A program made the position numbers and the translations under genes. The notes under the pieces were generated by a model. It saw nothing but the letters and a program-made list of their open reading frames with translations, was not told where the DNA came from and searched no databases. Below are positions 46,973-59,910 of a stretch of 64,000 bases of DNA, one piece after another. Where the stretch lies: the NCBI RefSeq assembly GCF_001434835.1, contig NZ_AZDV01000028.1, positions 23,695 through 87,694 of the forward strand, written 5' to 3'. Every line of letters starts with the position of its first letter. The first letter of the stretch is position 1. The DNA comes from Levilactobacillus acidifarinae DSM 19394 = JCM 15949 (lineage in GTDB: Bacteria; Bacillota; Bacilli; Lactobacillales; Lactobacillaceae).

Positions 46973-47010
46973 AAAACGCCCTCCTAGACCCAATAGATCT
47001 AGAGGACGAT
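46971..47010 (-). terminator. Upstream terminator of the tandem leader
   Basis: Minus strand: CGTCCTCTAGA / TCTAGGAGGGCG stem followed by TTTTTT. Confidence 0.85.
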
Positions 47011-47238
47011 CACATCGTGGTTCCACCCCTGTTCGTTGGTCTATCACTAAACCAACCTCAGTGAGTTGCAAGCAACTCCAGCGATAACGGGCTAACCCGA
47101 ATCATCCTACTCAATCTTCAGACGACCAACTCACAGATGTGCTTCACGTCATCAGCGACACCCGTTTCCATCATCGGGGCTTTCTGTCGTCACACTGATT
47201 CGCTACTCTTCTGCTCAACGTTTTGATTCATTGCCAAT
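46973..47238 (-). ncRNA. T-box riboswitch (His-type specifier) of the transporter operon
   Basis: T-box motif GGGGTGGAACCACG (47016-47029). Stem I is closed by CAGA/TCTG and TCAG/CTGA. The specifier loop reads GAA-G-CAC-A, giving CAC (His) at minus-strand positions 47139-47141. The same GAA-x-codon-A context gives the correct Val codon in the valS leader, which supports the reading. Uncharged tRNA-His should allow transcription. Confidence 0.85.
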
Positions 47239-56647: not shown

Positions 56648-57778
56648 CTAGGATTGAGGGCCCGTTGTGGGGGTCAACCGCACGGCGTTAATCAGGATTT
56701 GTGCCCCGCTCACCATGGCGGTGTGGTCAAACGTCATCCCCGGCACGTGTAAGCCCGGGATCAGCCCACAGCCGAGTCCCAGCATGGTACTGCGCTTCGC
56801 CAGCCCGTCGTAGGCGTAGAAGTGAAAGTCGTCGCCTCCCTGAGTCGGCACCGGGGCCACTAACCCGTCGGTCCCCAAGACCGCCGTGATGGCCTGGCCC
56901 ATCGTTTCAACCGCTTGCGGGTCGGGAAGCGCTGCCGGCGACAGGTCGTTACCGTCTAAGGTCACCTGAATATCGCCAGTTGACACCGCCCGCATCGCTT
57001 GAAAAGCCTGGTCTTGCAGCTGATCCATTAACGCATTGGTGCGCGCCCGTAGATCTACGGCAAAGGTCCCCTTGTCCGGCACAATGTTGGAAGACTCCCC
57101 GGCCTGAAACATCGTGGTCGTCACCGAATACGGTGACTCGGTATCGAGTTTGATCCGCTTAAAGCGTTCGTTGAGGGTGCTAAATGCGTCGATCACGTTA
57201 GCCCCCAACCAAGGGCGGCCGGCGTGGGCCGTCTTACCGGTGATGGTCACCCAGTAGGTCCGCGTGGCGATGTCGGGTAAGATGGCCTCGGCCTGGTGGT
57301 CGGCCACCTCACTGTCTGGGCACACGTGCAGCCCGTACAACACGTCGAGTGGGCCGAGTAAGCCGCTTTGAATCACCTTCTCCGCTCCGGTCACGGTTTC
57401 TTCGGCGGGTTGAAAGATCACCTTGAGCGTTCCCGGTAACTCGTTCGGGTGGGTCGCAAAGTAGGTCACGACCGCCAGCACGATGGCCATGTGGGCGTTG
57501 TGCCCGCAGGAGTGTAACACCTGCGTTTTTCCTTGGTAAACCTGCTTTAACGCGTCGATATCCGTTCGTAACCCGATGGTTAGTGGTTGACCCGGATTTA
57601 GGGTCGCAATCAATCCCGTCATCTTTGGAAACCGTTGATAGGTCACCCCCAGTTGATCTAAACGCTGGGCTAGATAGGCCGTGGTGCGTACTTCCTGAAA
57701 GGCGATTTCCGCGCGGGTTCCTAATTGGTCAAAGTCGTGATAAATTTGTTGTTCGTTTACTGTAATCGGATCAATCAT
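56648..57778 (-). CDS. M20 family amidohydrolase/peptidase
   Basis: 376 residues. Metal and catalytic motifs of the M20D subfamily: 'VLHSCGHNAHMAI' (Cys-Gly-His), 'FQPAEETVTGAEKVI' (Glu-Glu), the lid domain 'WVTITGKTAHAGRPWLGANVI', and 'GGDDFHFYA' near the C-terminus. Relatives remove acyl or peptide groups from amino acids (N-acetyl amino acids, hippurate, some dipeptides). It follows the OppA-type gene by 11 bases in one operon under a T-box with a His-type specifier, so a product releasing histidine is plausible but unproven. ATG with AGGAGGG. Confidence 0.88.
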   Translation of the reverse strand: MIDPITVNEQQIYHDFDQLGTRAEIAFQEVRTTAYLAQRLDQLGVTYQRFPKMTGLIATLNPGQPLTIGLRTDIDALKQVYQGKTQVLHSCGHNAHMAIVLAVVTYFATHPNELPGTLKVIFQPAEETVTGAEKVIQSGLLGPLDVLYGLHVCPDSEVADHQAEAILPDIATRTYWVTITGKTAHAGRPWLGANVIDAFSTLNERFKRIKLDTESPYSVTTTMFQAGESSNIVPDKGTFAVDLRARTNALMDQLQDQAFQAMRAVSTGDIQVTLDGNDLSPAALPDPQAVETMGQAITAVLGTDGLVAPVPTQGGDDFHFYAYDGLAKRSTMLGLGCGLIPGLHVPGMTFDHTAMVSGAQILINAVRLTPTTGPQS

Positions 57779-57789
57779 CCGAATCCCTC

Positions 57790-59430
57790 CTATTGCTGAC
57801 TGGTCTTGTAAGCCGTTTTTAACGAAATACCTTGGGCCGCCGCGTAAGTCACCCCTTTGAGTTGCGGATTATTGAGCCGGGCGATTTGGCCTTGATTCAG
57901 GACCGCCACGGCTTGATCGGTCATGGCAATCTGGTTGGCCTGCTTAAAATCGGCGTAGCGTTGCGGCGCGTTGCCGGCGTCCGTTCCGTTGGCGCGGGTG
58001 TAAACTCGGTCGAAAGCGGCGTTGGAATAGCTACCGGCGTTGTTGTAATTACCGGTATTCAACAACTGAAAAAATTCATTGAGTTCCGGATAAGACGAGA
58101 TCCAGTTGGAAAAGCCAATGTCGTAGCCCTGCTTCTTTTGCATGGTGGTGATGGCTTGGACCTTGGGTTGTACGTTAACCTTTAAGTTCAGCCCCTTTAA
58201 ATACTTCTCCGTGTTGGCCTGCACGTATTCGGCGGTATTTTTGAAGGTGTCCACGTCGTAGCAGACCAGGTTCAACGTCAGGTGCTTCACGCCTAGTTGT
58301 CGCAAGCCTTTCGCCCAGTAGCGTTTGGCCAGTTGTGGGTTATACGCCACGGCACTGGCAACCTTCGCCTCTTGGGTGAAGTCTTGACCGGTTCGGGGGT
58401 TCTTGGCGATATCGGCCGGGGCCATCCCCGTGGGGACCTTAGCCCCGTTCTTCAACACGTCGTCCACTAGGCTTTGCCGGTCGATGGCTAACGAAATGGC
58501 GCGCCGAACGTTGCGGTTGCGCATGGCTCGGTGATTGAAGTTGTAGGCCAGATAGTCGGTCTCCCCGCTGGGATAGGTCAAATAGCCGGGATTGGTCTTT
58601 TCCTGGGCGGCCTGTTGCCCGGATAACACAACGTTATCCAGCTTCTTGGCTTGGTATAACGACAGGGCCGTCTGAGGCGACTTGGCGACCTGAAACTTAA
58701 TGGTGGCTAGCTTCACATGCCGTCGGTCCCAGTAAGTCGGGTTCTTCTTCAACGCCCAACTAGTTGACGAGGCCGTCCAGTTCTGAACGGTAAACGGCCC
58801 GTCGTAAACCGTCTTGCTGGCTGAGGTACCGTACCCCTTCCCGTACTTGGCCACGGCTTTGGGATTCAGCGGGAGAAACGGCGCGGAGGCGACCAAGTAC
58901 TTGAAGTACGGTGTCGGCGCCGTCAGCGTCACCTTTAACGTCGTTGAGTTAACGGCTTGGACCCCTAATTTCTTGGCGGATAACTTCCCGTTTTCAATGG
59001 CCTTAGCATTCTTAAGCGGTAAGAACTGGTAGGCGTGAGCCGCCTTGGTGCTCGGCGTGACCGCTCGGCGCCAGGTATAGACGAAGTCGTTGGCCGTCAA
59101 CGCGTCCCCGTTGCTCCACTTCAATCCCTTGCGTAGGTGGAAGGTGTAGACGGTTTGGTTGGCCGTGGGGGTCACGATGGCCGTGGCCAAGCCCGGTTCG
59201 ACCGTGGTACTGTTTTTCATTCGGTACAGGCCCTCTTCGGCGTTGTTGATGGTTTCTAAGGCCCCCACGTCCGTGATCATGGTCGAATCTAACGATGAAA
59301 TATCGGCCTGTTCCATGATGGTCGCACTTTGCTGGGGACTCGCAGCCGCCGTGCGACCGCAGCCCGCTAACGCGAGGCTTCCGACTAAGACGACACCGAT
59401 TCCGACAAAACGTTTTAATTGATTTGGCAT
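57790..59430 (-). CDS. Oligopeptide ABC transporter, substrate-binding lipoprotein (OppA family)
   Basis: 546 residues. Lipobox 'LAGC' with Cys near residue 24. Family 5 solute-binding fold: 'DISSLDSTMITDVGALETINNAEEGLYRM', 'TFHLRKGLKWSNGDALTANDFVYTWRRAV', 'NVRRAISLAIDRQSLVDDVL'. No permease or ATPase genes are adjacent, so it must feed a transporter encoded elsewhere. Regulated by a T-box leader upstream; a small His-rich ORF lies between leader and gene. ATG with AAGGAGG. Confidence 0.94.
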   Translation of the reverse strand: MPNQLKRFVGIGVVLVGSLALAGCGRTAAASPQQSATIMEQADISSLDSTMITDVGALETINNAEEGLYRMKNSTTVEPGLATAIVTPTANQTVYTFHLRKGLKWSNGDALTANDFVYTWRRAVTPSTKAAHAYQFLPLKNAKAIENGKLSAKKLGVQAVNSTTLKVTLTAPTPYFKYLVASAPFLPLNPKAVAKYGKGYGTSASKTVYDGPFTVQNWTASSTSWALKKNPTYWDRRHVKLATIKFQVAKSPQTALSLYQAKKLDNVVLSGQQAAQEKTNPGYLTYPSGETDYLAYNFNHRAMRNRNVRRAISLAIDRQSLVDDVLKNGAKVPTGMAPADIAKNPRTGQDFTQEAKVASAVAYNPQLAKRYWAKGLRQLGVKHLTLNLVCYDVDTFKNTAEYVQANTEKYLKGLNLKVNVQPKVQAITTMQKKQGYDIGFSNWISSYPELNEFFQLLNTGNYNNAGSYSNAAFDRVYTRANGTDAGNAPQRYADFKQANQIAMTDQAVAVLNQGQIARLNNPQLKGVTYAAAQGISLKTAYKTSQQ

Positions 59431-59489
59431 AAGGCTTTCCTCCTTGATGACTGACGCTCTTCTGACTGCCAGTCCTGTCCCGACAACGA

Positions 59490-59579
59490 TTAATTGTGCA
59501 GACTATGGCCCATATGCCGCTGATGTCGCTTCTGCTCGGCAAGATTCGCGATTAAATTAAACATCATCAATTGAAACAT
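59490..59579 (-). CDS. Small His-rich ORF (29 aa) between T-box and oppA-like gene
   Basis: ATG at 59579, TAA at 59490-59492. A hydrophobic N-terminal part ('MFQLMMFNLIANLAEQ') is followed by a basic tail with histidines at residues 19, 22, 25 and 28, exactly every third position. AAAGGATG lies about 8-11 bases upstream. It begins soon after the T-box terminator and ends 59 bases before the OppA-type gene. It could be a leader peptide sensing charged tRNA-His, a small membrane protein, or chance. No attenuator hairpin is obvious downstream. Confidence 0.45.
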   Translation of the reverse strand: MFQLMMFNLIANLAEQKRHQRHMGHSLHN

Positions 59580-59876
59580 TTAGTCATCATCCTTTCTCTA
59601 ACAAAAAAGTCCCCGCAAAGACGTTAATCTTTGCGAGGACGGCTCAATAGCGTGGTTCCACCTCTGACTTCGTAATGACCTCACAGCCATTACCTCAATG
59701 AGTTTTCAAAAAAACTCCCCCCGGTTAACGGTGGGGACCGTTCACTCCTACTAAGCGTGACCCGTTCAGACTGACTGCTGGTAGCTGTGGTTCAATTCTG
59801 GTTTCACCCTTTCAGCCGTACGGGTGATCTCTTAAGGTTAGAATTTACTTTGACTACTCGTTGCATTTCTAATTTA
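59580..59876 (-). ncRNA. T-box riboswitch leader of the oppA-like/M20 operon
   Basis: T-box motif GAGGTGGAACCACG (59651-59664) and terminator (59603-59642). Upper Stem I is closed by ATTCT/AGAAT and the basal part by GTAG/CTAC. The specifier loop reads GAA-C-CAC-A, giving CAC (His) at minus-strand positions 59787-59789. If the basal stem is one pair shorter, ACA (Thr) is an alternative register. Confidence 0.85.
59603..59642 (-). terminator. Regulated terminator of the oppA-like leader
   Basis: Minus strand: GTCCTCGCAAAGA / TCTTTGCGGGGAC stem followed by TTTTTT. Confidence 0.88.
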
Positions 59877-59882
59877 AAATTC

Positions 59883-59910
59883 ATTTTAGGAGTTTTTAAC
59901 GAATTGTCAA
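59883..59910 (-). promoter_or_regulatory. Promoter of the oppA-like/M20 operon
   Basis: Minus-strand TTGACA (59905-59910), 16-base spacer, TAAAAT (59883-59888). Confidence 0.7.

Follow-up and report, generated by a model that had tools for sequence, protein, structure and literature searches.

A tiny histidine-rich reading frame behind a His T-box is probably a second histidine check in some lactic acid bacteria

Why would a T-box-controlled gene for a peptide-binding lipoprotein be preceded by a second, very small reading frame that is rich in histidine codons? We addressed this question in a window of 64,000 nucleotides from Levilactobacillus acidifarinae, the whole stretch of DNA that was analysed, in which the small ORF lies at 59490..59579 on the minus strand. 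A preliminary description had proposed two layers of histidine sensing, tRNA charge in the T-box and then ribosome speed on the His codons, as a new combination, and had offered a small His-rich membrane peptide as the alternative. Our comparison of related loci implies that the frame is probably a second histidine check in some lactic acid bacteria, and we lean slightly toward reading it as the leader peptide of a translational attenuator that acts behind the His T-box.

The ORF and its surroundings

The ORF, its ribosome-site-like sequence and its four His codons were all found where the preliminary description had placed them. The 29-codon frame runs from ATG to TAA, with the stop inside the coordinates above, and its product of 29 amino acids, MFQLMMFNLIANLAEQKRHQRHMGHSLHN, carries His at positions 19, 22, 25 and 28. 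Its Shine-Dalgarno (SD) site, AAAGGATG, was read from the sequence at 59588..59595 (minus). Upstream, a T-box leader matches Rfam RF00230 at 59632..59870 (minus) with 89.7 bits (E 3.6e-20) over model positions 1-219, a score just below the gathering score of 93. Alignment to RF00230 puts the specifier codon CAC (His) at 59787..59789 (minus). The specifier region reads GAA-N-CAC-A in 17/17 orthologous leaders examined, where N is C, A or T, and this constancy around a variable N makes the His reading of the specifier firm. The antiterminator motif AGAGGTGG likewise is present in all 17 leaders. A terminator at 59603..59638 (minus), with a hairpin from 59638 to 59611 (11 pairs by eye, including G-U) and a T run at 59608..59603, stands between the T-box and the ORF as read from the window. 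By eye, a promoter-like pair of elements, TTGACA (59910..59905) and TAAAAT (59888..59883), occupies 59883..59910 (minus) with a 16-base spacer.

Downstream of the ORF lies oppA (57790..59430, minus), which encodes a solute-binding lipoprotein of 546 amino acids (Pfam SBP_bac_5, PF00496) and has an SD sequence, AAGGAGG, at 59439..59445 (minus; read from the sequence). The next gene (56648..57778, minus) encodes an M20 amidohydrolase/peptidase of 376 amino acids that scores above the cut-off of TIGR01891. Placement of the ORF between a His T-box with its terminator and an OppA-type gene was thus borne out, and the operon comprises oppA and the M20 peptidase gene, whose products would together supply histidine from peptides. 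The M20 gene follows oppA in 15/15 close orthologous loci searched (a count that left out genome G013 and included the S. similis copy, which is split over two frames) and in 0/3 Pediococcus loci; in two Lentilactobacillus loci it starts some 350-400 bases past oppA.

OppA from the window is 95% identical to that of L. zymae. Of 35 Levilactobacillus genomes, 4 have a close OppA orthologue (the least similar, in G021, at 79% identity), as do 6 of 15 Secundilactobacillus genomes, with only a 52% relative in a seventh, and 6 of 24 Lentilactobacillus genomes; the S. similis locus was found additionally in a scan of named relatives. A homologous ORF is intact in nine species of Levilactobacillus (the window's own, L. 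zymae, G013 and L. suantsaii) and Secundilactobacillus (S. collinoides, S. odoratitofui, S. angelensis, S. silagincola and S. yichangensis), with 29 codons in six and 34 codons in three. S. folii has a different ORF of 40 codons, with another N-terminus and the ending ...PHQVHSLHHRF. In the public assembly of S. similis JCM 2765, the ORF, oppA and the M20 gene are all frame-broken, and since oppA and the M20 gene are broken too, this locus may be decaying or badly assembled. The homologous ORF is absent from 6/6 Lentilactobacillus loci, although the T-box is present there. One of these six loci, in Lentilactobacillus sp. Marseille-Q4993 (L132, 2864-2968), has an unrelated ORF of 12 codons, MRSSNRHLNPLT, with one His between the T-box and oppA; by eye, the 5' arm of a hairpin could be made from the final codons of this ORF.

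Predicted pairing of the leader with the oppA start

In folds of single leaders (oppA end at +40), the ORF paired with the start region of oppA. RNAalifold, run on the nine homologues (S. folii and S. similis are not among its rows), found two helices, P2 and P3, in a weak consensus of -5.78 kcal/mol with a covariation term of +0.31. Helix P2, delimited by RNAalifold and pair counts, joins codons 5-7 (59560..59566, minus) to codons 18-20 with His19 (59521..59527, minus). Helix P3, for which an assignment test was added, joins codons 21-24 (59510..59518, minus) to the oppA AUG and its neighbours (59426..59434, minus), such that the CAU codon of His22 is predicted to lie opposite the oppA AUG in 9/9 species. 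A further helix, P1, came from single-sequence folds and is absent from the RNAalifold consensus; it would join the ORF start, AUGUUUCAAUUG (59568..59579, minus), to 59410..59421 (minus) inside the oppA coding region.

We compared the P2 and P3 pairs with shuffles, using 14 of the 17 RNAalifold pairs (a helix of 3 pairs, columns 105-107 with 177-179, was omitted). Across nine rows, 93.7% of the cells were paired versus 88.5% in shuffles, and the covariation score was 0.147 versus 0.066 in shuffles (reached by 2/500), whereas slid partners scored 0.016-0.075. Six cells had changes on both sides (reached in 7/500 shuffles); such double changes affected 2 pairs, which is not above shuffles (376/500). 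The base pair before the P3 core is G-C in three Levilactobacillus species and U-A in five Secundilactobacillus species, and in S. similis the oppA start AUGCGC is matched by leader GCGCAU. When leaders were assigned to oppA starts in all 720 ways, with one row for each of 6 lineages (S. similis being one of these), pairing as good as the native was seen in just 2, one of which is the native assignment itself. The row/column ranks of the native pair were 1/1 in the window's own species and in S. similis, 4/1 in S. odoratitofui, 1/4 in S. silagincola and 4/7 in S. yichangensis.

With the oppA end at +60, pairing of the oppA start codon with positions -150..-40 was at least 0.9 in 8 of 11 loci that have the leader, the frame-broken S. 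similis among them, and was lower in G013 (0.57), S. yichangensis (0.33) and S. folii (0.04). By comparison, this level was reached by 0/36 control ORFs of the window (mechanically listed, 150 amino acids or more, with an SD-like word; 7/36 reach 0.3) and by 0/6 Lentilactobacillus oppA genes without the leader. When ORF codons were shuffled (oppA end again at +60), mean pairing of ORF with oppA exceeded the shuffle mean in 10/10 species, and the fraction of shuffles as high as the native was 0.027-0.207 in nine species and 0.467 in S. folii; given these single-species fractions, the case for masking rests on agreement among lineages. Against synonymous randomisation, P1 was better than chance in G013 (0.0015), L. 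zymae (0.0035) and L. suantsaii (0.041), borderline in the window's own species (0.0545) and in S. collinoides (0.064), and no better than chance in four Secundilactobacillus species (0.12-0.70). In S. folii, our reading of the fold places the His region of the different ORF opposite the oppA SD sequence and not the AUG. Prediction and covariation together point to an oppA start that is masked by leader RNA.

A different partner was considered for the HSLH codons, CATAGTCTGCAC (59496..59507, minus), which codon comparison marked as unusually constant in DNA. In folds extended to +100, this block paired with the oppA lipobox codons (59367..59357) at -19.9 to -23.9 kcal/mol in the window's own species, L. 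zymae, G013 and S. collinoides, and only weakly, at -6.3 to -9.5 kcal/mol, in S. odoratitofui, S. angelensis, S. silagincola, S. yichangensis, S. folii and S. similis. The lipobox was rejected as the common partner of the block, because pairing is strong in four species only. Where it formed, this pairing would be an alternative fold, since it crosses the other helices.

A two-layer switch would work as follows. When charged tRNA-His is low, RNA polymerase would pass the T-box terminator, as expected from the T-box family, and the ORF RNA would emerge before oppA and be translated from its own SD site. ORF RNA that is free of ribosomes would pair with the oppA start through P3, with the lock also including P2, in which the Met5-Met6 region faces the His19 region, and in Levilactobacillus P1, in which the ORF start faces oppA codons 4-8. 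A ribosome that waits at hungry His codons would cover P2 and P3 and leave the oppA start open, whereas with enough histidine the ribosome would reach the stop codon, the lock would re-form and oppA would be shut. Because of T-box read-through and the ribosome-dependent lock, oppA and the M20 gene would pass two checks of the same signal. ORF translation, ribosome stalling and the direction of the effect on oppA are what we infer from this layout.

We modelled the second check by hiding the ribosome footprint with each codon in turn in the A site and calculating the energy to open oppA from -16 to +12 (oppA end at +60 in the first masking calculation and +90 in the second). For 4 of 6 Secundilactobacillus species, the calculation predicts what a classical attenuator would show: oppA opens with the ribosome at His codons and closes with it at the stop. 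Opening costs for free RNA, the mean of His codons and the stop codon, in kcal/mol, were 10.8, 7.1 and 10.6 in S. collinoides (permutation fraction for His versus other codons, 0.032), 12.6, 5.7 and 10.9 in S. odoratitofui (0.0028), 9.6, 4.8 and 8.2 in S. angelensis (0.0002), and 10.9, 3.8 and 10.9 in S. folii (0.0075). In S. silagincola (8.6, 5.8 and 6.0; 0.054), the stop is nearly as open as the His codons, and in S. yichangensis (5.4, 5.3 and 4.7; 0.0105), the His codons give no opening relative to free RNA. A single ribosome at His codons opened oppA no better than at other codons in 4/4 Levilactobacillus species: the window's own (12.8, 10.4 and 13.9; 0.66), G013 (13.3, 13.1 and 13.4; 0.95), L. 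zymae (11.7, 10.7 and 11.4; 0.74) and L. suantsaii (10.0, 8.4 and 13.3; 0.27). In the models, it is P1 that holds the lock in Levilactobacillus. Adding a second ribosome on the ORF start in this genus brought the cost at His codons to about 5-9 kcal/mol, and a ribosome at the ORF start alone had much the same effect as two. Under the attenuator reading, opening of Levilactobacillus leaders would need a trailing second ribosome on the ORF start. The His-specific step is therefore a prediction that is supported in part of Secundilactobacillus and not for the window itself.

These calculations also bear on plain translational coupling, in which the ORF RNA would shut oppA unless the ORF is translated, whatever the histidine supply, and the His codons would be by-products of CAU:AUG pairing. 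We consider this explanation unlikely, though it fares best among the rivals. In most species the opening cost also falls when a ribosome occupies the first ORF codons, and in S. angelensis and S. silagincola it falls to about the His level; together with the effect of the ORF-start ribosome in the Levilactobacillus models, this is what coupling would predict. Moreover, the CAU codons of His19 and His22 lie in P2 and P3 opposite AUG triplets, and because CAU complements AUG, some His codons may indeed be by-products of the mask. However, neither P2 nor P3 includes His25 (CAT) or His28 (CAC), and still 7/9 homologues retain HSLH (L. suantsaii lacks the block), which recurs in S. folii, whose pairing scheme differs. 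The His specificity of the T-box in all 17 loci also speaks against coupling, as does S. folii, where a ribosome at the ORF start hardly lowers the cost of opening oppA. Returning to the attenuator, we tentatively suggest that the sensing codon itself is the mask: a His CAU antisense to the next AUG would both measure histidine and lock the start. This principle would have survived joint changes of the two strands from genus to genus, and would have been rebuilt in S. folii with the His region facing the SD sequence.

Conservation of the reading frame and its codons

The frame that the preliminary description had singled out is kept, with His codons, in the orthologous leaders of nine species, each ORF having 4-6 His. 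The SD site and ATG are kept in 9/9 homologues, and insertions within the ORF are of whole codons only. CAY triplets number 45 in frame versus 1 and 3 in the other frames of the nine homologous ORFs, which come from related species and are not independent; the corresponding numbers by frame in S. folii are 4, 3 and 2. By contrast, the distance from the ORF stop to the oppA start varies (59, 59, 59, 72, 69, 37, 27, 27 and 28 bases, with 59 in the window), where the gaps of 37 and 28 use a later oppA start and an earlier in-frame ATG would give 7 and 22. A bias at synonymous sites, also raised in the preliminary description, is pronounced: among columns with the same amino acid in at least 8 of 9 species, 7 of the 8 non-Met columns of the ORF use a single codon, compared to 11 of 351 in oppA. 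Because the frame is kept and its codons are nearly frozen, selection seems to act on the RNA as well as on the frame.

This hold at the nucleotide level is also what would be expected of an element that works as RNA only, as a structured 5' leader or stability element, with ORF translation serving no purpose, and S. similis retains the masking helix despite its broken ORF frame. We judge this improbable, because the SD site and ATG, the whole-codon insertions and the frame bias of CAY triplets all speak for translation, and because oppA and the M20 gene of S. similis are broken as well. A functional small peptide, whether a membrane, metal-binding or signal peptide, appears very improbable: M1, F2, Q3, M5, M6 and two His are constant in the nine homologues, but the central part varies freely (L. 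suantsaii has RHSTNTVT in place of FNLIANLA, and S. angelensis has FHDNTNTAG), 5 of 7 codons that differ between the window's species and L. zymae alter the amino acid, S. folii has another N-terminus, and neither Pfam nor NCBIfam gave a match to the peptide at E 0.001. The membrane version put forward in the preliminary description is not supported, as the L. suantsaii and S. angelensis replacements leave no conserved hydrophobic segment. Finally, transcription attenuation by the ORF was rejected, as no terminator was seen before oppA: inspection by eye between 59490 and 59430 revealed no hairpin with a T run, and the gap from ORF to oppA is only 27-28 bases in three relatives.

A peptide profile searched against 397 family genomes gave 36 places in 35 genomes at E ≤0.05, of which 8 are at the oppA locus. 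The other 28 were taken as chance; 11 of them were inspected by eye, and none was seen to follow a T-box next to an oppA gene. One of the 28 presumed chance places had an E of 5.9e-5, so that E-values are a misleading guide for a profile this rich in His. The profile missed the S. folii ORF, and the ORF had no match in the plasmid collection.

The conserved frame and His codons and the covarying predicted mask favour the part of the earlier proposal that concerns two-layer sensing as such, whereas stalling of a single ribosome does not act His-specifically in the models of the window's genus.

Relation to known leaders and to neighbouring T-box loci

To our knowledge, tandem sensing of one uncharged tRNA, first by a T-box and then by a ribosome, is documented only for rtpA of Bacillus subtilis. 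In the rtpA leader, it is the ribosome terminating on the leader peptide that covers the following SD site. Unlike that device, the leader RNA is here the predicted mask, with a His codon opposite the start codon; moreover, with a gap of 59 bases in the window, a ribosome at the ORF stop would be too far from the oppA SD sequence, which is less clear for gaps of 27-28 bases. The amino acid, the gene and the clade also differ from rtpA. According to passages of two reports, rtpA transcription is under a Trp T-box, its translation depends on a leader peptide, RtpLP, with three Trp codons, and complete RtpLP translation prevents RtpA synthesis (PMC2311275, PMC11255114). As far as those passages describe the rtpA (anti-TRAP) leader, the present locus resembles it in having a T-box, then a short ORF with codons for the same amino acid and its own SD site before the gene, and in a second layer that, as we propose here, acts on translation of the next gene.

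The claim of a new combination thus has to be narrowed. A T-box with a cognate-codon leader is known from rtpA, so that the two-layer principle is not new, whereas our searches of the open-licence literature yielded neither a His version that locks a peptide-uptake gene through RNA nor a description of this ORF. As in E. coli his and the candidate His attenuators of Firmicutes, a leader peptide with His codons lies near alternative RNA structures; unlike the E. coli his type, no terminator is seen between ORF and oppA, the His codons are spaced and not in a run, and a T-box stands in front. In the accessible sections of their survey of his regulation in Gram-positive bacteria, Ashniev et al. 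(2022) list His T-boxes and candidate His leader attenuators of Firmicutes, mention attenuators that hide the ribosome site, report His leader peptides for groups without HisR and His T-boxes, and state a "T-box and/or" attenuator for two families (PMC9413887); those sections make no mention of a T-box and a His leader attenuator on one operon.

The same operon with the same T-box specificity has been described in part of a report on the histidine-decarboxylase island of L. parabuchneri, where a His(CAC) T-box is followed by a peptide-binding protein and an M20 peptidase, and where the authors presumed that histidine regulates these genes and that His-containing peptides are involved in their role (PMC5313534). 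Unlike in the window, no small ORF is mentioned in that part of the report, and none was found in the orthologous locus of L. parabuchneri DSM 5707. In food lactobacilli, the uptake of His peptides may be under the control of the present locus, and a relative of these bacteria carries the same operon on this histamine-forming island, as far as the consulted part of that report goes (PMC5313534). If tandem sensing had a second case, with another amino acid and another lock, this would point to a layout that has arisen as a solution more than once.

Several neighbouring or related loci are worth recording. A second His (CAC) T-box of the window (47227..46999, minus) lies ahead of an ABC permease gene that is HisX/Y-like by reading, and the scan listed no SD-bearing small ORF between the two. 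Pediococcus ethanolidurans and P. cellicola have a small frame (MQRTHKLVNLISLVIISLIIKVHGAVTLTF or a close variant) with much Ile, Leu and Val, which begins some 230-265 bases ahead of an OppA relative (44-45%). After it comes a hairpin that resembles a terminator and has a T run; no T-box was seen in the 500 bases read, and the arrangement looks like a classical leader-peptide attenuator for branched-chain amino acids. The window's own genome has 33 T-box matches, and in 9 of the 30 loci examined the gene is preceded by one or more short frames that have an SD-like word. Seven of these nine were set aside by eye, leaving the present locus and that of a paralogous OppA (contig C28, about 300187-301782). 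The paralogue, which has counterparts in G005 and G013, has a T-box whose specifier is UGG (Trp) by eye. After this T-box comes an ORF beginning MMLIRWQSS..., which has a strong SD site, runs into the start of oppA and is shared by three close species; with its one Trp codon, this locus is possibly a second tandem case.
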